DNA from: Sipunculus nudus
Lineage: Eukaryota > Annelida > Sipuncula > Golfingiida > Sipunculidae
NCBI GenBank assembly: GCA_026874595.1
Contig: CM049320.1
Coordinates: forward strand, 23,693,714 to 23,757,713
DNA: 64,000 nt
Direction: 5' to 3'
In this document: piece by piece, positions 14,663 to 63,607 of the stretch
Layout: each line of letters opens with the position of its first letter
Numbering within the stretch: position 1 is the stretch's first letter
The notes under the pieces: generated by a model
Seen by the model: only the letters and a program-made list of their open reading frames with translations
What the model was told of the DNA's origin: nothing
Database searches by the model: none
Program-made: the position numbers and the translations under genes

Positions 14663-14989
14663 AAGAAAAGGTAGATGTGGAAGTAGAGTAGTCTGAATTG
14701 AGTTATGACACAGTGTGCCACCTTGCAAATTGCACTCCCTCTGCTGGTCATGGGCCTGTTCCAACCTAGACACATGTGGGTGACATCCACCTCCACCCAA
14801 TGGGTGGCAGGTTTCTTATGTCCAAGTACCACCTGGCCTGGTCAATTTCTGGTGCCCCACCCACATTCTCATGTGGCACCCGTCAAGGGTGTATCATTTG
14901 ACCTTTGTCTCAGACCTTCCCAAGGGTACATAGGTAACAGTGTACCTGTAGGTTACCCCTAAAGCAAGCCTTACTACCACACCTACTCA

Positions 14990-46529: not shown

Positions 46530-48547
46530 CTACTCAATGCCAGGGAAAATGTAAAACGAACGTTGAAGTCCCATAATGCACTCTGGAGTTTGCACTTTTC
46601 CCTCATCCTCTTGGCCATATTTACTGGACACATTGTCCCGTACCTAAAATGAGGAGACATTTTTGTTTATGCTTGGTAGTTTAATGGAATATTTCCACCC
46701 ATTACACAAGTGTAATTTGGAGTTTATAGTCTGTAGTAGAGTCACTGACTATAAACGAGTGGTTTACATTCAAGCATAGGATTTAAGATCAAGCTTTTTA
46801 TCGTTTCGCAAGTCATAATCTATATAAGTTTATAAAAATTCGAAGAACTGCTGCAATCCAGAAATGGGTAATATTTATAATTAATGTCTCTGTCATTCTT
46901 TTGCACAATTATACTAAATCATTACAAACCTCTGCCATTAGCTCTTGCATATGCTTAGTTGCAGCTTTCACCCTAAATACTGCGTCTATCTCAGATATAT
47001 ACCGGCTACCGAGTCCTCGATCTCGAATGGCTGGTCTCTCTGTAATTGTTACAAAAAAAAGAGCGATGATGAAGTTACGTTGGTTTAACTTCAGTAGCGT
47101 TCTAATGGGAGATAATGCTTATTAAAAAATACCGGGTCTTATATTTTTCGTACTTGGCTGACTTGCGAAGCCGAAGTAGTAGTTGCAGAATGTTGGAACT
47201 TTTATAAACGTGTTCCCTTGCAAAACGGATGAGTCCATTTCTGCTCCCGAAGGCCACGCTATGCTGACGCCTTCGTCATTTTCTTCTGTGAACAGTAAAA
47301 GTCAAGTTAGAGTTTTTCGTATATCTACAATGACTGCTTTAATTTCATCTTTTAAAAATATGACTCTGTTGCATTTCCTTTAAGCATGATAATTATGATG
47401 TCTTAAGTTTAACGAGCCTCAACGACGCAGGCACAGAATGCTTTTACGCTTTCTGAACTGTCTCCTTATAAGTTAAAATTTCAACCATAAATACATTATG
47501 TACCTCCCTGACAAGCCTGAACTAACACTACTTTTGGTATGGAGGCCAACTCAGGAGCAGCAGTACTTGAAAAGTATTCTTCAATCGCCTCTCTGACTCC
47601 GCCCTTATCCCCATCATTTGTCATAATGTGCGGTAATCCCCGATGCAACCCTCCGTGAGACATCAATACTATGAAGACACTCGGTGCATTCATCAAGGTG
47701 GCCTTCTTGACAAAACATTCCAATGCTGATTTGAATTCCTTGGAAAATGTATGAATGATCACACAGTAACTGCATATCTAGGGCAACATGTCATGAATAA
47801 AACAAACGCCCCATGTAGCTTTGTGCTTCCTAAGCTGTATAATAGTAAAGCCATATACCGACTTTCTTTTGAAAGATATGTGCAGGTTATAAAAGAACAC
47901 ATATAGGCCCGCTTTATTTACTAAATACTCTGGTACTACATTATTAGCTTACTTTGACGATTACGTCTTCATATATTTCAACAATGAAACCCAAGTCATG
48001 GAACAAGGCTGTGATGCAATGGCGGTCTTTTACCGAACCAGTCCTGGTAAAAATTTTCCCACTTTTCTTTACTTTTACTTCTGTCATGTTGATAACCAAG
48101 ACAAACCCCTTAGGAAAACCGTGCATGGGATAGCTCTGATGTTGAATAGCAAAACAACAATAACAATAACAATAACAATAATAATAATATATGTCTTAAA
48201 ATGACATGAAATGTATAACATGACATAACCCGAGCATTCGGGATAAATGTATAGTTTCCATCATGCAGAGTAGGCCTGCATTCACTGTAAATTGTTGCAT
48301 TTGGTTTTTCACAAACAAAAATCTTTATGAAGTGCCTGCAGAAAAAGACAGTCATCACATACATCTTTCCAATGCTTCTCATAGAAGGCTGTCGTGCATT
48401 TAACAACATTTCCTTCCTGTATGGCCAATTAACTCTTCTGTTCTCCGGCTGTGGAACCTTTCAACGACACAGGTGGTCCTGTGGCTTCGGTTTGTTCTTT
48501 ACCAGGTGTTTGTTTGACGCGAACATCTGATTCTGATTGACACAGGC
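46530..48547 (-). CDS. Caspase protease, p20 and p10 (six exons; probably C-terminal part of a kelch-caspase gene)
   Basis: Caspases are cysteine proteases that cut after Asp. Minus-strand exons are 48547-48503, 48135-47953, 47738-47504, 47285-47154, 47039-46930 and 46643-46530 (stop TAG 46532-46530). Junction phases are 0, 0, 1, 1, 0, with AG/GT borders throughout. p20 begins SYPMHGFPKGFVLVINM; the S1-pocket Arg is in RTGS, the catalytic His in LMSHGG (codon 47657-47655) and the catalytic Cys in QACQG (codon 47513-47511; the usual motif is QACRG). p10 has FCNYYFGFAS, then RPAIRDRGLGSRYI with the third binding Arg, and ends FYIFPGIE. All key residues are present, so activity is likely. As a separate gene it could start only at the ATG at 48526, giving about 265 residues with almost no prodomain. 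The preceding kelch exons join in phase, so it is probably the C-terminus of a larger protein. No CARD or DED is visible. Confidence 0.95.
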
Positions 48548-48826
48548 CTGTTAAAGATATTTTATCAAGAATAATACAAGAGAAAGAAAATTTAAAGTAA
48601 ATGAACAGGGATATAAATGAAACTCTTCTACCATATCCAACCAAATGCAAATCACAGTACAAGAATCCATACATATTTAAAAGATTATATTTGTCCAAAA
48701 GCTGTTGTCAATATTTATATGTAATTCTAAAATAGCTAAATCATTAACCTTACCAACGAAGTTTACATAGGTAAAATACTATTGCCTATTTGTCTGTCCT
48801 GTAATCTGTTTCCGTTAAATGATTAC

Positions 48827-51800
48827 TTTCACGTACAATGTTAAAAAATGGAAATAATAATTGGCAACTATTGACAACATGCCTATGCTAAGAACGGTCA
48901 GGTCGCAATTCTGGGCACATCCTGAAGATTTTCTTCTAAAAATGAGAAAATGGTGAATTTGAAATAAGAGGCTGAGCGAAATAATGAATACTGGATGAAA
49001 CAACATTAACATTTTAAATAGGAGTAAATTACATTGTTCTTCGATCACACTACAAAGTAAATAAAATTATGAATACAAAACACCCATTTGAATCAATTGT
49101 AGTTTGCTCAACATTTTTTGTAAGCGTTTTTAAAAAAAAGGAGTCAAGTATCAGAGATAAATCGTTGGGTTACAGTAACCTTTGAGGCAAATAAATAATC
49201 ATCCCATTGATTCTTTACATTAAATTTTATTCAACTTCTAAGCCCAATCTTCTTTCCTCCAGCAAACTATTGATTAATGATAAAAATGTCCCCCTTTACT
49301 CAGCTACTGCAATTAAACTACACATTTTTATAAACTAGTTAGGTCTGCAATAAATTTCATCTGAACATTTTCCTTTACGGATATTATGAATTACCCGATG
49401 AAACACAAGCATGACGTTTAAAAAGCTTTGTCATTTACATTAATTACATAAACATATACATAAAGTATATTTACACAAAGTCACATATCATAAAGTATGA
49501 CACGCATCGGTCATATATATGCTTTTCTAACAGAATTATTCTAATCCCGCTCAAGTCTTAAATGTTTCATGTACATGTTTATTACTGATATATGAAAAAT
49601 TTATGTACCAGATCAATCGCTGAAATATTCCTCTGACTTATTGCTGATAATATGTACAACATTTGTAAAGCTCGAAAGTAAATCATTGTCTCATATTTGT
49701 TTTTCAGCTTTTCTATAAAGTACATTGTATATCTATAAATTTGCAATAAACCGCAAGCATATTACATTTCACAGGGATATTTAAATAAAAAAAACACACA
49801 CACATATATGTGCATCTATATCTACATGCTATATACATACATACCCAATTATTACTATATGTCTGCCAACCGCTACACATTGGTGGCCATATAGTGGATT
49901 TGGCACAGCACAAGAAATGGTAATGTGACTCCAATTGTAATGGTCTGCAAACGTATGATAAATATTCATAATCTCCTTTTCTTCAACCCGAGATATATCA
50001 GACTAATTATAAGTCACTCCACTTTCTGCTGATACAAGATTACATATGACCGCTAAGTAGTCCACACACAGATTTTTTGCAAAGCTAGCTTAACTAAGTA
50101 TATGTACATCTGCAGAATCCCATTCCGGTTTCGGACAACTTGACAGGGCAGTATCACACGCTTCCTCCCATTTTATATCCTGGTGTTAACCAGGCCCGGT
50201 GACTACTGCACTTGCGGGCTGTGGGTCAGTAATCGGCCCCATTCTTTTGTCATTCCATCGAGGAAGCCCCGAAAGGCGCATTCGTCCCCATTAAGCACGG
50301 CCTTCCCATTGAGCTGCAGAGCGCCCACCCTGGGTGGGGGCTCGAGGTGAAACTTCACCGCTTCGGCAGAGATTCGAACTCACGATCTCCCGGCTTTGAG
50401 TCCTGTGCTCCACCCCTGAGCCACGGAAGCCGGTTAGTCCACAAACATATGACACTTTACAAAATCCCCTCAAGCGAGGACAGTTTGGACTGCTAAGGAT
50501 TTATTATTACATGGCTACCAGCTGAACACGAAAACTTTAAACATTAAAAGGGGTAATTACCAGTATGAAAACTGTAGATGTCATTTCTTGTCCCTGATTT
50601 GGTGTACCCTCCGTATATAAATATTGTGGATTCTAAAGTCACTAAAAAGAAAGACGATATCCATTATGATATTATTTTTCACGCGCTTTTCACAATATAC
50701 ACATATATGTATATACCCAGTGAATAACATATATAACCTGAATTATAACTGTTACTATGTGAGACATTTTTAGTTGAATAACTTCGAATTTTTCCAAGTA
50801 CTTCTCATTAATTATGCAAATATTTGACGTTTAATAATACTTTCGATAATACGCCTTTGGTGTACATTTAATTTTAAAGGAACCATGACCTGTCAGAAAA
50901 TATTCTTGGATCAGGGAATTGATGACCTATTATAGTACATTGTTGATACTTTGTGACCGTATGCTGGACTCTAACAGATATATAGACAGAACAGCGAAAA
51001 CAGATATGAAGATCTTATAACTGACCACTAAACTGAGTAATAGAAAATGAAAATAAATATCAAAATACAGTTTTCCTGTATAGAATAAAAATATGCATTG
51101 AACCGAGGTATGCAAAAAATATGATTGACATTTGCTTGTTCCGAATTAATGGGTGTGGATGTGTAGTGCATCCAAAGGCCGACGACAACGTACGGTTTTG
51201 CAACTAAACGGAACTAGACAGGTCTTGCTTAGGATAGACAATTGGGTGATGGGTCCAGTATTTGTTATTTGCCTTATTAGAATGATTGGGCACATACTGA
51301 AGCCTCTTGCTGTAAATTACTTTCTTTATACTTCCACCCTATTTCTACAGTGGATATTCATAATTTTGCAATTACCTATATGAAACGTAAAGCCTGCTGG
51401 ATTTTCAACATACTCTTGAGCACTAGTTGTTAGGAAAAAATATTAACGCTAAAGTATCTGCATGTATCAATGAACGTCTATGGTATGGAAAGAGACTAAC
51501 GCCAGCAACAAGTGTAAGCGTTAGACCAAATTAGACTACAACTGGTACCGTCCTGATGCGGGAACATTTCATCTATATGCATTCATTGCACTGTATGGAT
51601 ATAAATTATATTTAATCAAGAACCCATTATGATATAAATGATTCAGAGCTTCATAGTATGACCAACACCAATGATTTATTTAAACCTTAAACTTCGATTT
51701 CATGATGAAGTGAAGTGCTTGCCAAATTGAACTAGAACAGAAAGGTAAGGCCAAAATAAAAAAAAAGGTATGGTTCTCATGCACTTTTTTTGTTTCAGAA

Positions 51801-54800
51801 ATCAATGCAGGCGGGCGCTTTTATTTTAAATTTTTTGGTATGTTTCGATTAATATGTCAAATGATAAAGGAAAAGCATGAAAATAACAGTTTTATTTTGC
51901 TAAATAAGTAAAAGCACTACAAAACAAAGGAAATTGTATGGTTTTATCTTCTTGACAGAAATGTCGGAGCGGCAGCAGCTCAAAATTGGAAAGTTTTTAT
52001 TGAAAATCAAAATAAAAATTTTTGATGCGGGGGTTTAAAATTGATGCGGGCGGTGCCTGAGAACCATACCTTTAATTTTTTTTGGCCTAAGTGCCCTTTT
52101 TTATTACATACTTTGTGTATGTGTGATAATAATTTTATAGTTCATCTAAAGTGATAAAGATTTGTGGGAGGCGAGGATGTAATTACATCAACATGTTTAA
52201 TGAAACGCAAATAATAAAAAACTTTACAATATATCTTTATTTTTTGATACAACAGTTTTACCTGCACTATGTTCAGTTCTTGGTAACGGTATATCTCCAC
52301 TCATAGAAGGCGTATGCCATTTATTGCTACGCACATCATAAACCCTGACGAACTCTTCCTTTGTTTTGTACGTTTGGTTCCATCCACCTATAACGTACAT
52401 TAGTCCTTTGATTGCGGAAGCTGTGTGACCAGTACAAGCATGTGCCTGTAGGTTTAGAGAAATAAGAAAATATGATCCATTAGAGTACGAAAAACCCCAG
52501 GTACTTTACAAAACTACCTCAAAATATCATAATTTGTAATGTAGACAATGAAGCCAATGAATAATTTCAACTTGTATCACCAGACTATTTAATGTTACGC
52601 CATAAACAGCTATGACAGAGGGGTTATAACTAATGTATTACTTGGTGGTAAATGTTTGAAAGTGAGCATGAGATTCTCTGTAATTTTAGATCTGTATCTT
52701 AATGGCTAATTACCTGTAGGTATAATTAGCAGTACAGTGAAGGCCAAAGCATGTTCAGACAGGATGACACTTAGGTCAGAGCTAATTAGCAGTTCAAGGA
52801 ATTGCAATTGAATTTTATAAAGAATAATACACCTTTGGTTACAGTGCCAGCCGGGCTGAGAGATGTTCACACTCGTGCTTTTACAGTTAATCAAAGCATT
52901 CTAGTTGATTAGTTATAAAAGAGATAATGATAGTTCAATATGTATGTAAGGATTGGAAATCTAGACATATGGAGGTAGAGGAGCCTTGGACAGAGATGTT
53001 AACGTTGTGCATGTCTGTCCTCCGCTGTAGGACCTGGTGGAAGTTTGGCACACTAGGATGGAACTGGACTGGCTGCATGCTCAGAATATTACTTAAGTAA
53101 GTAATGGCGGAATTTATGACCACAATGTGAACCAATAGCTGCGTTCTACGATTGTTCTGTTAAGTAAATGTGAGACTTTAATGTTTAACAGGAAGATGTA
53201 TGCTAAATCTACAATCGGAATGTGTATTCTAAATGTTCACCAGAAACCTGTGACATGGCATTCAACTGGAATGTGTGACTTTTATGTACTGCCGGAATGT
53301 AAGACATAATGTGAACAGGAACTGGTAACTGTATTTTTCAACTGTGAAGCTGTAATTGTGATGTCAGAAGAATAAACTATGTGTTAAAGTTACAAAGACT
53401 TCCTACTTCGTGTCATCAACTTAGAAATACATAGAATAGCTATGTGGCACAGCAATACATTTGAATTTCATGTAACAGACGGCATCTTTACTTATGATGT
53501 GATATTTGATAGAGATGGGTAAATGAGGAGGTACCAGCCATCCATATGTCACGCAAAAAGGATCTGGGTTCACTAATTATTGAGTGTAAGATTTTTTTCA
53601 TGCATCATCGAATGACTTCACCAATTAGAAAACTTGGTTATATTTTTCTTATTTTCAATGAAACAAGTGTGAATGGAGAGATGATGGTAACACATGTAAC
53701 CATACATAGGGGGTGACCTACTTATAAAGGGTACGTTACTACCTGCCAGCCACTGGTCGGGTTAACAGTAACCCAGGTGTAAAAAAACAACTGAAGAGAC
53801 TCCTGTCATATTTAACAGATACAACTATCAATGATCATAAAAAAAGAATTTACAAAGCAATCAATTTTTTTTTACCTTTCATCTACACTCAGCTTAGAAA
53901 CGGATAAGAGAAATATGAAACGATCTGAAATATGATCTGAGATATCATTAGGGTATTCATGACGCATTTACTGAAAAATCTCATTATTGCAAACATAAGA
54001 TAAAATAACGGGGCGTAATATGTATAACTGCATATATACACCTTCTTCTAATACTTTATTTTTATAGAATTTCAAATATAGACCTAAACATATGTCCAGA
54101 AAACTGGTAGCTCAAAGTAACACAAAATAAATTAACATCAGAGTAAAAATTACACTTTTGCAATACATGTTTGAACGTTTGTTCGGTAAAACATATAAAG
54201 ATAACGAGGATAAACAGTAGTATTGCCGACAGTTTCACTTCTATTGTCATTTTACAAATACCATCACATATTGTGCTGGTCATACATATGCATATAACTG
54301 CAGGGTGTCCCAAAGGGTGGTATGTATTCCTTTGCTGTATTTGTAACATGACAATGGAAGTGAAAAGCAATGTAATTTTAACTATAATGTTAAATATATT
54401 TTGTGTTACTTTGAGCTTCTGTCATATTCCGTAAACAATCTTTGACGTTAGAGTCTGATGATAAGTGATTCATCCTTTTCCTTCCTATACTTGTCCAGTC
54501 ATGTGTCTATAAATGTTAAACTATCCAAACTCTGTGATGGCTTAAACTTACCTGTGGTTTGGACTCCCATTTGTAAGTGTTAAGGTTTAACAGAATAAGG
54601 TTACTCTTCATCTTACAAGCACCCTGTCGAAACGAAGTTACAAGAATGCAGTTCATTTACATTGGAGCGAAATGTGTTTAGAAAAAGCATGTTCATAATT
54701 AAACATGCGGCAGGGACTAGATTTTTCGTGGGTGTAAGGGAAAACACTCACAGAGACACCACCGAACACAATCATGTATTCATCAATCATACATGCGGAA

Positions 54801-57231
54801 TGGTATGACCTGGCTTCGGGGACGTCACCGTGGACTGTGAGACGGGACCACTCTTCCTTTGCTGTGGAAACAAAGTTTTGCTATTATCTGTTTAATGCCC
54901 CTTATTTGCATTGAATGGATAACTTATATCCCGTCTTGTGACATCATGGCACATGTTGAAAATTGTGCAATACATAGTGTGAAAATAGCCAAGAATACAT
55001 TGACTCTAAACATAATTCCATATTTGTTCTCTTACACCTTTTCACGAGAGATTTGTTTTTCATTTTTTCCCATTATGCAGGTATCAGTAAAACATTAAAC
55101 AAATTAAACGAATAATCCTCAAATTATCTGCCTTGATTAAAATCCAATATGCTACTAGAAAACCACACTGATGAATACTTAAAAATAGGCCTCGATCAAT
55201 AATAATATATATGAAGTATAAATGTTATAATACAATTCAACAAACAAAAGAGTGACATCTACAATTTAAGCCTCATCAGTAACAACATCTGGAACATAAC
55301 AAATAAGTGATCAGTCAAAAGTTTGGGACGTATCATTTGGATGACTATTTCATTTGTTCTGTTAATATGACAACAAAGAAAGGTCATCAATCAGTGCTAT
55401 GGAAGAATATCCGTTTGTACACAGGCTGAATAAGACGATGGGGTACCTTGAACAAGGTTATTGTTATTTACGGTAACTACCGCATTTGCTTATCAGCGCC
55501 ATCTTGTGTCCATTTAGTGAAACACATAACGTTTGTGTAAAGCATTAGAACTGGCTAATTCCTTTGTATATTCTTACACATTTGAGTGGATCACCAACAG
55601 GAATACATATAGCTTCATTACGTTGAGTTGCAATATGATTAAAGTTAACGTTTAACCAAAAAGATACATATCTTGAACTTCTAAATCGTTCAAAGTTCGA
55701 ATACTGGATGGTGCTGATAAGCAAATGCGGGAGTTACCGGCAATAATATAGTTTTGTTCAAAGGATTATTAACATTGGCAATCAACCATTTATCAATTTT
55801 CAACTGCTGCCATGTTTTGACCAAAGGTAGTATTTTTTGTATCATAAGTTTACAACAATAATTACTTAATAATTGTAATGATTAATCTACGGTTATTTTA
55901 TAATATTTACTACCACTTACACGGATCAAAGCACCAGAGTTTGTTATCCGAGTGTTTATCAAATTCTTCTTCGCCTCCCCATAAATAGATCTTTCCTTGA
56001 TACCCTGCAGCTGTGTAACCATATCGAGAGGATGGCGTGTTGTCACCCTCGGCCCATCCTGTCTTTTCTGATATTTCTCCCCATTGATAGTTCTCTGAAT
56101 ATGAATTACTATTTTCTTTTTCAGATTGATTTAAAATCGGCACACTCTGATTGTAGCTATATTCTATTGTATAAGGTGCATCCGTAGACCTCTCAGAATT
56201 AAAATTCTTGGAAACAAGTGTTAAATGGCATAGTATAGTTTTCTTAAAGTTTAAAGTGTTGTTTTTTATTTCATGAAATACATGCTGATGTGAATATTAA
56301 ATATTGCCAATCATTTAAAATATATGGTAGAAAACGCCATTTTAACATGAATTTTAGGATGAAGACCAAATGTACCTAAGAGGATCATTGTTGGTTGAAA
56401 TATCATTTCATATATTGCTTTATTTTATTGAAGATTTTGAAAAAGGCCCTATATACCTTATCAAATTAATTTACTGCCAAATAATTCTGTTTTTTTTTTT
56501 TGGGGGGGGGGGGCTTACGAAATTTTGAAAATGGCTATACAATCCTGCACTTATTACCTACAACCCAGTACATATAAATATATATGTGTGTGTGTGTGTA
56601 ATAAATATGACTATTGAAGTACAAAAACAATGGTGAAGTGTTCAGATAACGCATAAGTGTAATTCAGCCATTTCAATTTACTTACACTGCATTGCATCTA
56701 TATACAAACAACCTTTTTTGGTATCGGTGTTTTATAATGTGTATGTATACAACCGAAATTATTTCAACACAAACAAATTATTTATGTACAAACAAAAGAA
56801 AGCTCTCCTGTTCCATATGAAGTAAAACCATAACAATTTTTAAAATATCTGGTGACAAACGAAATATTATAACTAGAACTTTCTACAAAGCCGTCACATT
56901 GCGAACAGGATTATATAATGAGATAGGTACATTCTTGCCTTTCTACCTATTTATAACATTGCTAATTACGCTCTCAATCACAAACAATCACAAAATGTAC
57001 TGTTGCAAAATAAATAGATGTGTAACATGATATCTGAACAATGTTTGTGCTCTCATTATGTCAGTCTATTCGGTAGCAGTTGAGGTAAATTTTGATACTG
57101 TTTATCATTAAAATATTGCAAACCCAAGGTAATATGTATAGTAAAACCCGAGGCTAATAAGCCATATATAAGTGGACAAGAGGTACATTTATTTAGTTGA
57201 AATTGGGTAATTTAATAATAATAATAATAAT

Positions 57232-57273
<42 letters not shown>

Positions 57274-57447
57274 CAAATTCATATTATCCTTGATAATACC
57301 TGTATTAAGAACATTTACTACAATCCTGTCCATTTCGGGGGGCTCTGCTCCACCAAATGTATAAATGGAGTATCTATCAGGAACATGAACTGCTTGATGT
57401 CTCCACGTTGCTAGTCCCCCATCTCTGTGTATAGTGCAGGATGCCAT
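48827..57447 (-). CDS. KLHDC3-like kelch propeller (exons K1-K8; probably N-terminal part of a kelch-caspase gene)
   Basis: Minus-strand exons are 57447-57300 (or to 57319), 56206-55921 (or from 56163), 54861-54752, 54623-54552, 52445-52262, 50641-50561, 49944-49845 and 48935-48827. Junction phases from the second exon are 1, 0, 0, 1, 1, 2, 0, all compatible. The start ATG at 57447 gives MASCTIHRDGGLATWRHQAV, close to the KLHDC3 N-terminus. Kelch blades show YSIYTFGG, RYGYTAAGYQGKIYLWGG, ARSYHSACMIDEYMIVFGG, HTASAIKGLMYVIGGW, TLESTIFIYGG, and LYGHQCVAVGRHIVIIGG followed by CDLTVLSI. A Ser/Asn/Glu-rich insert sits between blades 1 and 2. KLHDC2/3 proteins are CUL2 ligase receptors for C-terminal degrons. 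Here the region after the last blade runs into the caspase exons instead of an obvious BC-box. The K1/K2 join has two phase-valid options. If the last exon is not spliced at 48827 it stops four codons on (TAA 48817-48815). Confidence 0.92.
50111..50434 (-). mobile_element. tRNA-derived SINE
   Basis: On the minus strand it starts CCGGCTTCCGTGGCTCAGGG. A pol III A box TGGCTCAGGGG (50423-50413) and B box AGTTCGAATCT (50380-50370) are about 33 bp apart, as in tRNAs. Roughly 240 bp of non-tRNA body follow, ending near a CCGAAACCGGAATGGGATTC word. The head does not close into a full cloverleaf, so this is a SINE and not a tRNA gene. It is in the kelch intron between 50561 and 49944. A 60-codon frame across it is not a gene. 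Confidence 0.75.
51749..52087. mobile_element. MITE with TAA target duplication (PIF/Harbinger-like ends)
   Basis: The left end GGCCAAAATAAAAAAAAAGG continues TATGGTTCTCAtGCAC. The right end is its inverted near-copy (GTGCcTGAGAACCATACCTT, then a T-run and GGCC). TAA flanks both sides (51746-51748 and 52088-52090). The 339-bp body is AT-rich and noncoding. The GGCCAAAA ends and TAA duplication link it to the 2.45-kb element at 29901. It lies in a kelch intron. Confidence 0.65.
53140..54060. other. Kelch intron, nothing recognised
   Basis: Intron between the exons at 54552 and 52445. At 53160-53360 there is a loose ~50-bp periodicity of GGAATGTGT/GAATGTGAxx words, too diverged to define. No exon is needed here because the flanking exons join in phase 0. 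Confidence 0.4.
54109..54417. mobile_element. Foldback (long inverted repeat) element
   Basis: The left arm starts AGCTCAAAGTAACACAAAAT and the right arm is its inverted copy ending at 54417. The arms continue through TTTCACTTCxATTGTCATxT and TACAAATAC toward the centre near 54300, with about 55 extra bp in the left arm (roughly 54170-54225). Because the strands resemble each other, both yield similar-looking reading frames, which are artefacts. No target duplication was identified. It lies in the kelch intron between 54552 and 52445. Confidence 0.65.
56485..56514. repeat. Poly-T/poly-G tract
   Basis: A T-run followed by a G-run, intronic. Length may be unreliable in the assembly. Confidence 0.8.
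57210..57272. repeat. (ATA)n/(AT)n compound microsatellite
   Basis: ATA trinucleotides pass into about 40 bp of AT dinucleotides immediately beyond the donor of kelch exon K1. Ile-Tyr and Ile-only reading frames here are artefacts that extend the true exon frame. Confidence 0.9.
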
Positions 57448-62399: not shown

Positions 62400-62980
62400 C
62401 TTCTGTTTTGATATTTATTATCTTTTGATCATTTATGTGTACTTATTTACTAATCCGGCAATTTTTGGCAGTTTTATTAAAATCTGTTCTTGGTCCAATA
62501 GCTCTGATTGTGCATTTTCTAATTTAGACTTTAAGCTTTTAGTCAAATACGCAGCAAAGGCTTACTTGTATTTATCAGTGAGGTTATTTTTCCACCTCGA
62601 TTTTACAGTGAGTGTATTTTTCTCTCTTTTTTTCCACTGATATCAGATATGTCACTCACAGTTTTTCTGCTGGCATTACTTAAGGATTAACAATCTGAGT
62701 TTGCCATTGACAGTGTGATGCATACTGGACACTGTATATCAGATAAACAATTGTCTTGGTTTTTAATTTAAACCTCTGATTTTGGGAAATAAACATGTAT
62801 GGTGATGTTATAATATAGTGAACTAGAAAAGCACTCAGTGAACTATTTTGCATAACATAAAATTAAAGAATTTAAGGATCAGCATTAAGTCAAATAGGCG
62901 CTTTTTATTATATGAAACATTAAACTGTGAAAAATTATGAATTGAGACATCATATAATATTTCAAAATATATTGTCAGAT
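62400..62980. other. Sequence between Gypsy remnant and caspase copy, nothing recognised
   Basis: AT-rich. This is where the rest of the caspase p10 and the p20 exons of the downstream copy would be expected; I find none. Confidence 0.5.
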
Positions 62981-62981
62981 T

Positions 62982-63607
62982 TGCAACTATTTCTACGGCT
63001 TCGCAACTCAGCCAAGTACGGAAAATGGCATTATATAAATCGGCAGTTATCAATTCTGAAATTAGGATAACTGAACTAAGGATTGCCATTGCATTCACGT
63101 TTTGCTATATACTTTTGATATTATCATGTTATTGTTCTACCATTGACAGGGGAACCTGCCTGCCGTGTTCCAGGACTCAGTAGCTGGTACATCTTAGAGA
63201 TGAGAGAAGTATTCAGTGGAAAAGCAGCTATCAAACATGTGGCTGAGCTAATGACAGAGGCGTGTCACGTATCTGAATAAATGTGCAATGATATAACCAA
63301 TTAGGATAATCATCACTTTTAAGAGAAGTTTAATTTTCGAGACTATATAAAAACTATAAATTTATAGATATTAAGATAGTAAACAATATCAGATTAAACT
63401 ACAATGATTCATTTCAAATCTGACATGAATGTAACGGGTAGACACATTTCTATCAAATACCCAGCAGAAATGATATGCCAAATAGTCTGATTTTAGGTAC
63501 GCAAAAATGTATCCAAGAAATACGGTCATGCGGAAGAAATAATCCAAACTCCAGAGGCAATTAATGGACTAGAAAAGACGTTTTATCTTTTCCCTGGCAT
63601 TGAGTAG
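62982..63607 (+). pseudogene. Second caspase copy, p10 exons only, inverted, 5'-truncated
   Basis: Three plus-strand blocks match the last three exons of the caspase at 46.5-47.3 kb. They are 62982-63015 (CNYFYGFATQP, the tail of the p10 exon), 63150-63259 (EPACRVPGLSSWYILEMREV) and 63497-63607 (VRKNVSKKYGHAEEI, ending FYLFPGIE then TAG). The middle block has exactly the 110-nt length and phase of its counterpart, and the last is one codon shorter. Upstream of 62982 similarity stops in mid-exon. No p20 exon with SHG or QACxG is found before it. The donor after 63259 reads GAG/GCGTGT instead of GT. This fits an old duplicate that lost its 5' part. A functional gene with distant exons cannot be excluded but is less likely. 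Confidence 0.8.

Follow-up and report, generated by a model that had tools for sequence, protein, structure and literature searches.

A predicted family of kelch-caspase genes in Sipunculus nudus

A kelch propeller of the KLHDC3 type followed by a caspase is probably a real, and apparently undescribed, caspase architecture in the genome of Sipunculus nudus. Judged from the genomic sequence, the members of this kelch-caspase family are likely to be single genes that have multiplied on two contigs of the assembly, C13 and C15. The copy in the window, by which we mean the whole 64,000-nucleotide stretch of contig C15 that was analysed, is not the best example of the architecture.

Exons rebuilt from the sequence place the two halves in tandem on the window's minus strand, the KLHDC3-like propeller first and the caspase after it, from the ATG at 57447 to the end of the caspase at 46530 (Table 1). 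Read to its TAA at 48817-48815, the kelch half has 329 amino acids and matches PF24681 (Pfam, 4.8e-59), and the caspase half, read from the ATG at 48526, has 265 amino acids and matches PF00656 (Pfam, 5.3e-29). Domains, order and strand are thus as described in an earlier note on this DNA. The junctions proposed there, including 48827 to an exon at 48547-48503 and on to 48135, are phase compatible and leave the joined frame open. As the note had also stated, neither AATAAA nor ATTAAA occurs between 48815 and 48547, an in-frame stop (the TAA at 48817-48815) lies just past the proposed donor at 48827, and a caspase starting at 48526 would be very short before its core, with 8 residues ahead of SYPM by the note's route. 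In our reconstruction, however, these junctions add up not to 1761 nt (587 codons) but to 1797 nt, stop codon included (598 aa).

Table 1. Exons of the window copy (positions in the window) and kelch-caspase loci on contigs C13 and C15
Feature	Position	Strand	Basis
K1: start ATG and first kelch strand, KLHDC3 N-terminus-like	57300..57447	-	rebuilt exon, Pfam, limpet KLHDC3 comparison
K2, kelch exon	55921..56094	-	rebuilt exon
K3, kelch exon	54752..54861	-	rebuilt exon
K4, kelch exon	54552..54623	-	rebuilt exon
K5, kelch exon	52262..52445	-	rebuilt exon
K6, kelch exon	50561..50641	-	rebuilt exon
K7, kelch exon	49845..49944	-	rebuilt exon
K9, last kelch exon (K8 of the earlier note); ends DLTVLSI + 1 nt, phase-1 site, GC donor ATAG/GCATGT	48883..48935	-	paralog comparison
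Linker and D1 exon (GLCQSESD...EQKS*LAIQEGNVVKCTTAFYEKHWKD), phase 1 to phase 0, in-frame TAA inside	48363..48547	-	paralog comparison
In-frame TAA on the conserved route	48429..48431	-	route reading
Ca: start of caspase p20 (SYPMHGFPKGFVLVIN...)	47953..48135	-	rebuilt exon, alignment
Cb: p20, catalytic His (SHGG) and Cys (QACQG)	47504..47738	-	rebuilt exon, alignment
Cc: intersubunit segment, candidate site AEMD/S, start of p10	47154..47285	-	rebuilt exon
Cd: p10, presumed substrate-binding Arg (AIRD)	46930..47039	-	rebuilt exon, alignment
Ce: last caspase exon, TAG stop	46530..46643	-	rebuilt exon
Locus W	window		
Locus A18	C15:18.14M		
Locus B08m	C15:8.24M		
Locus C08p	C15:8.26M		
Locus D29a	C15:29.85M		
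Locus E29b	C15:29.87M		
Locus F10	C15:10.47M		
Locus J40	C15:40.16M		
Locus G13a	C13:34.74M		
Locus H13b	C13:32.05M		
Locus I13c	C13:32.00M		

The same layout recurs elsewhere in the 1.43 Gb assembly. The caspase family gave 83 exon matches, and the kelch protein of the window copy matched at 55 places, including the window itself. After addition of nine extra places, from the 72 of a search with a paralog caspase, merging the matches of the whole assembly gave 29 clusters for kelch and 61 for caspase. C13 and C15 together carry 15 kelch clusters. Eleven of them, the window's among them, have their closest caspase on the same strand and no more than 10 kb downstream. The other contigs carry 14 kelch clusters, with no caspase inside 25 kb of any of them. 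As for the caspases, such an upstream kelch accompanies all three of the C13 clusters, 8 of the 35 on C15 and none of the 23 elsewhere. The earlier note had cautioned that phases may match by chance; the recurrence of order and strand in 11 loci goes beyond chance, but the loci are related by duplication and hence do not represent 11 independent events.

Contig C15 harbors 35 of the 61 caspase clusters of the genome, and 27 of these have no detected kelch; the kelch query was a single protein, so that diverged kelch exons may have escaped detection. The upstream stretch was checked for two of the 27. No kelch match was present in about 9 kb upstream of L039 (C15:17.43M), a caspase with a D1-like segment (ICPTPMEFYKAKKDE, see below for D1) and a Ser/Thr-rich stretch, for which kelch was not found. 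In the case of L040, neither half was matched and even its own caspase was missed, which gives this result little weight. Conversely, the remaining four kelch clusters on C13 and C15 are not directly followed by a caspase of their own. One such cluster, L022 (C15:8248427-8251880), is situated between two kelch-caspase copies. Downstream of A18, a kelch exon with an in-frame TAA (L016, C15:18130682-18130855) is likely a decayed copy. On C17 (20698274-20701182, minus strand), there are caspase exons that are at most 65% identical to those of A18 (43% over p20), and no kelch match is found near them. The window itself contains a partial copy of the same caspase family on the plus strand (62964-63604), with the p10 exons (end of Cc, Cd and Ce); upstream of it, no p20 or kelch match was found on the plus strand within the window.

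The join between the two halves was studied by an exon-by-exon comparison of ten loci, with J40 added later, and could be traced in 8 of the 11 (W, A18, B08m, C08p, D29a, E29b, H13b and I13c). In F10, G13a and J40, searches for the last kelch exon were negative, and the best candidate in G13a runs into a stop. In all eight traced loci, the end of this exon falls at an identical codon position, in phase 1 and a few residues past the DLxV core, with a GT donor in six loci and a GC donor in W and A18. For the window copy, this position is 48883, and not the donor at 48827 on which the earlier note had relied. The route from 48827 to 48547, which is not conserved among paralogs, was dropped as the main route, and the exact junction given in the note is probably wrong for the window copy. 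Its C1 exon (48547-48503) has a fitting acceptor, but its end was misplaced, as the exon extends to 48363 and includes the missed VVKCTTAFYEKHWKD.

Past the last kelch exon, the order is a linker, then a segment D1 (a short exon or an exon end), and then a caspase exon starting with SYPM or similar. Examples of D1 are CTTAFYEKH in W, CTRNFYEEH in A18 and CTRQFFEEH in C08p. With loose patterns or by eye, a D1-like segment can be recognized in all 11 loci; the strict motif CT..F[YF]E.H is present in three, and the F[YF] core alone is common to all. Linker and D1 form a single exon with phase-1 start in A18, B08m, C08p and W, and a separate linker exon, starting in phase 1 and ending in phase 0, was assigned by eye in D29a, E29b, H13b and I13c. 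Two loci gave complete models. C08p can be read as an open frame of 616 aa in 14 coding exons, with all 13 introns of the GT-AG type, and A18 as an open frame of 602 aa with a single GC donor. Both models match PF24681 (1.6e-65 and 1.1e-73) and, like the window copy, PF00656 over positions 2-233 of 233 (2e-35 for C08p and 5.2e-36 for A18; all Pfam).

The agreement of the phases has to be read with care. The phase series from the window and the comparisons was imposed on the choice of splice sites in the paralogs, so that equal phases are partly so by construction; independent of that choice is the finding that those phases do give open frames with acceptable splice sites. When linker acceptors were ranked without regard to phase, the best one was in phase 1 in C08p and A18, and in phase 2 in B08m. 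The inner acceptor between linker and D1 is weak in D29a and E29b, where other AGs outscore it.

The linkers also bear on whether the two halves are translated together. That of B08m spans 82 codons and that of H13b 59; neither contains an in-frame Met or stop, and their two other frames have 3-6 stops. Translation of these linkers would therefore have to begin in coding sequence further upstream, for which the last kelch exon is a fitting candidate. It seems unlikely in this light that kelch and caspase are two separate genes duplicated together as a linked pair, a reading also at odds with the shared phase-1 position at which the last kelch exon stops in all eight traced loci, even if the kelch exon of the window copy can be read to a TAA of its own and yields the 329 aa given above. 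Kelch-only clusters do occur, and the caspase L039 has a D1-like segment and no kelch detected within about 9 kb, both as one would expect of separate genes. The same is true for the in-frame Mets in the linkers of A18, C08p, I13c, D29a and E29b: together with the Met of SYPM, which is available in most copies, they would make a separate caspase start possible. Because of these Mets and the imposed phases, we hold the single-gene reading less firmly.

Comparisons of sequence divergence bear on the same question. For D29a versus E29b, the 41 codons ahead of the first linker Met of D29a have w = 0.41 (7.5 synonymous and 11.5 other changes), and the whole linker has w = 0.76. The H13b/I13c linker has w = 1.17, and a purifying signal is absent. 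Distances between loci co-vary for the kelch and caspase halves (Mantel r 0.54, reached by 24 of 5040 permutations, seven loci, some of them partial), as expected for a unit that duplicates as a whole, but a linked pair would fit as well.

The conserved route in the window copy runs from 48935-48883 to 48547-48363 and on to 48135, and it is open except for a single in-frame TAA at 48431-48429. With this stop in the linker on the conserved route, the copy is damaged or unusually spliced: we may be dealing with a pseudogene of recent origin, with an allele, or with a copy that is spliced differently. We lean slightly towards a pseudogene whose kelch-caspase family is otherwise functional, as the TAA would suggest, in spite of the otherwise open route and of a comparison with A18 in which w is 0.21 (kelch) and 0.13 (caspase) with synonymous sites near saturation, so that the window copy has probably been under constraint for long. 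Two routes keep the frame open, from the donor at 48827 to an acceptor at 48416 (1806 nt) or by way of an extra small intron from 48503 to 48412 (1791 nt). Splicing by such a route of its own, which would make the window copy an intact kelch-caspase gene, is conceivable but doubtful, since neither junction was seen in the paralogs and the acceptors score -0.2 (48416) and -6.3 (48412). The proposal of the earlier note that the propeller stands where a caspase would have its prodomain is supported in part: the 11 loci with kelch and then caspase, the open models of 616 and 602 aa, and the Met-less linkers of B08m and H13b speak for it, and the stop on the route of the window copy speaks against it.

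Two further features of the window should be mentioned. A nuclear RNase P RNA gene is located at 14677-14980 on the minus strand (167.7 bits, full length). A kelch intron contains, at about 50150-50431 on the minus strand, a stretch resembling tRNA-derived repeats (GTTCGAATC box), the start of which has one copy in the window; a tRNA scan, set to bacterial code, reported no tRNA there.

KLHDC2 and KLHDC3 are kelch substrate receptors of CUL2 ubiquitin ligases. The kelch-caspases resemble them in the N-terminus and the propeller, which is of the KLHDC2 type by the PF24681 matches in W, A18 and C08p, and the best solved match of C08p residues 1-301 is KLHDC3 (PDB 9d1i, 8e-27). In limpet KLHDC3 (P0012), SPSLKTLCNLAVL comes directly after the last blade, DLYVLDF, and fits what we take to be the BC-box pattern. 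The kelch-caspase propeller ends where this BC box would start. With the same presumed pattern, a BC-box motif was detected at the junction in P0012 and in none of eight kelch-caspase copies; a loose CUL2-box pattern was matched by one of the eight (D29a) and also by P0012. Where KLHDC3 is expected to have its tail of BC box and CUL2 box, the kelch-caspases continue into a linker and a caspase. A kelch half without the KLHDC3 BC box also speaks against separate kelch and caspase genes.

The caspase half belongs with peptidases of the C14A type, as PF00656 is matched over its full length. In C08p, residues 354-614 resemble caspase-8 (3h11, 2.4e-19) and residues 339-501 resemble a caspase-2 chain (8vp4, 7.9e-22). 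The residues that we take to be the catalytic His and Cys, together with the p20 Arg that presumably contributes to the S1 pocket, are invariant in all ten aligned copies (J40 was outside the alignment), and the p10 Arg is present in the window copy within AIRD. Caspase models that had the GSWFI equivalent in exon Cc were dropped, because the alignment assigns it to Cd. A D-S pair is found in 7 of 8 intersubunit segments, and xExD/S in 5 of 8 (D29a, H13b and J40 were outside the set), which makes these positions candidate cleavage sites. Neither CARD nor DED was detected in A18 and C08p (Pfam, E 0.001), where only kelch or propeller families precede PF00656.

We also looked for relatives of the fused protein. 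A public protein search for a fused homolog found PF00656 in none of the 120 matches listed out of 167, and a profile search built on four paralogs found it in 0 of 49 matches. Searching with the caspase part alone among proteins of fused length gave no match at E 0.001 in 932 candidates, but known caspases were missed as well, so this method is weak for a diverged caspase, and the protein databases may still contain a fused relative that escaped detection. No protein with both domains is among the matches listed; the earlier note knew of no described one. Likewise, among the matches listed for kelch and caspase in the literature (titles and abstract openings), no description of a kelch-caspase protein was found.

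KLHDC3 is a substrate receptor, and caspases are steered by a handful of interaction domains. On the family layout of a KLHDC3-type propeller, then a variable linker at the BC box / CUL2 box point, D1, and a caspase with what appear to be intact catalytic residues, the simplest reading of the sequences would be a substrate receptor wired to a protease rather than to a ligase. Kelch and caspase exons would be joined in the mRNA, and the propeller would bind a partner and thereby bring the caspase to it or dimerise the caspase. The caspase might then activate itself at the intersubunit Asp and cut bound or neighbouring proteins, so that a protease would act in place of a ubiquitin ligase. Initiator caspases bear N-terminal recruitment domains (PMC7836458), and the kelch half might accordingly be an oligomerising platform, i.e., a prodomain in the sense of CARD or DED, instead of a substrate receptor; we regard this as possible but not probable, given that KLHDC3 is its best solved match. 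If the propeller is indeed a receptor, one may speculate, at rather long odds, that a degron-receptor propeller exchanged its ligase-docking tail for a caspase and became a natural targeted protease that captures and cuts proteins with a given terminus, and that the lineage then expanded it into a varied set of sensors that might serve in immune recognition or cell death. A KLHDC3-type propeller in the position of a steering domain, followed by the caspase exactly where the ligase-recruiting tail would start, suggests that the same receptors for substrates can also serve to direct proteolysis. The family may thus offer a natural model for targeted protein cutting, with the 616 aa of C08p as a concrete protein model.

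In comparison with caspases of the caspase-8 or caspase-2 type, the kelch-caspases differ in having a kelch propeller and no CARD or DED. The term kelch has no occurrence in the main texts of two studies of bivalve caspases (PMC7836458 and PMC10967218). According to these texts, 46 bivalve caspases have CARD, DED, DD or DSRM prodomains or none, with the DSRM prodomain in an oyster caspase (PMC7836458), and the caspases of Mytilus coruscus have CARD, DED, FN3 or PB1 prodomains or none (PMC10967218). The bivalve caspases with DSRM, FN3 or PB1 are similar to the kelch-caspases in that they too belong to an expanded family and have their caspase domain after an unusual N-terminal domain. Going by both texts, unusual prodomains are already known in bivalve caspases, and the kelch propeller adds another.
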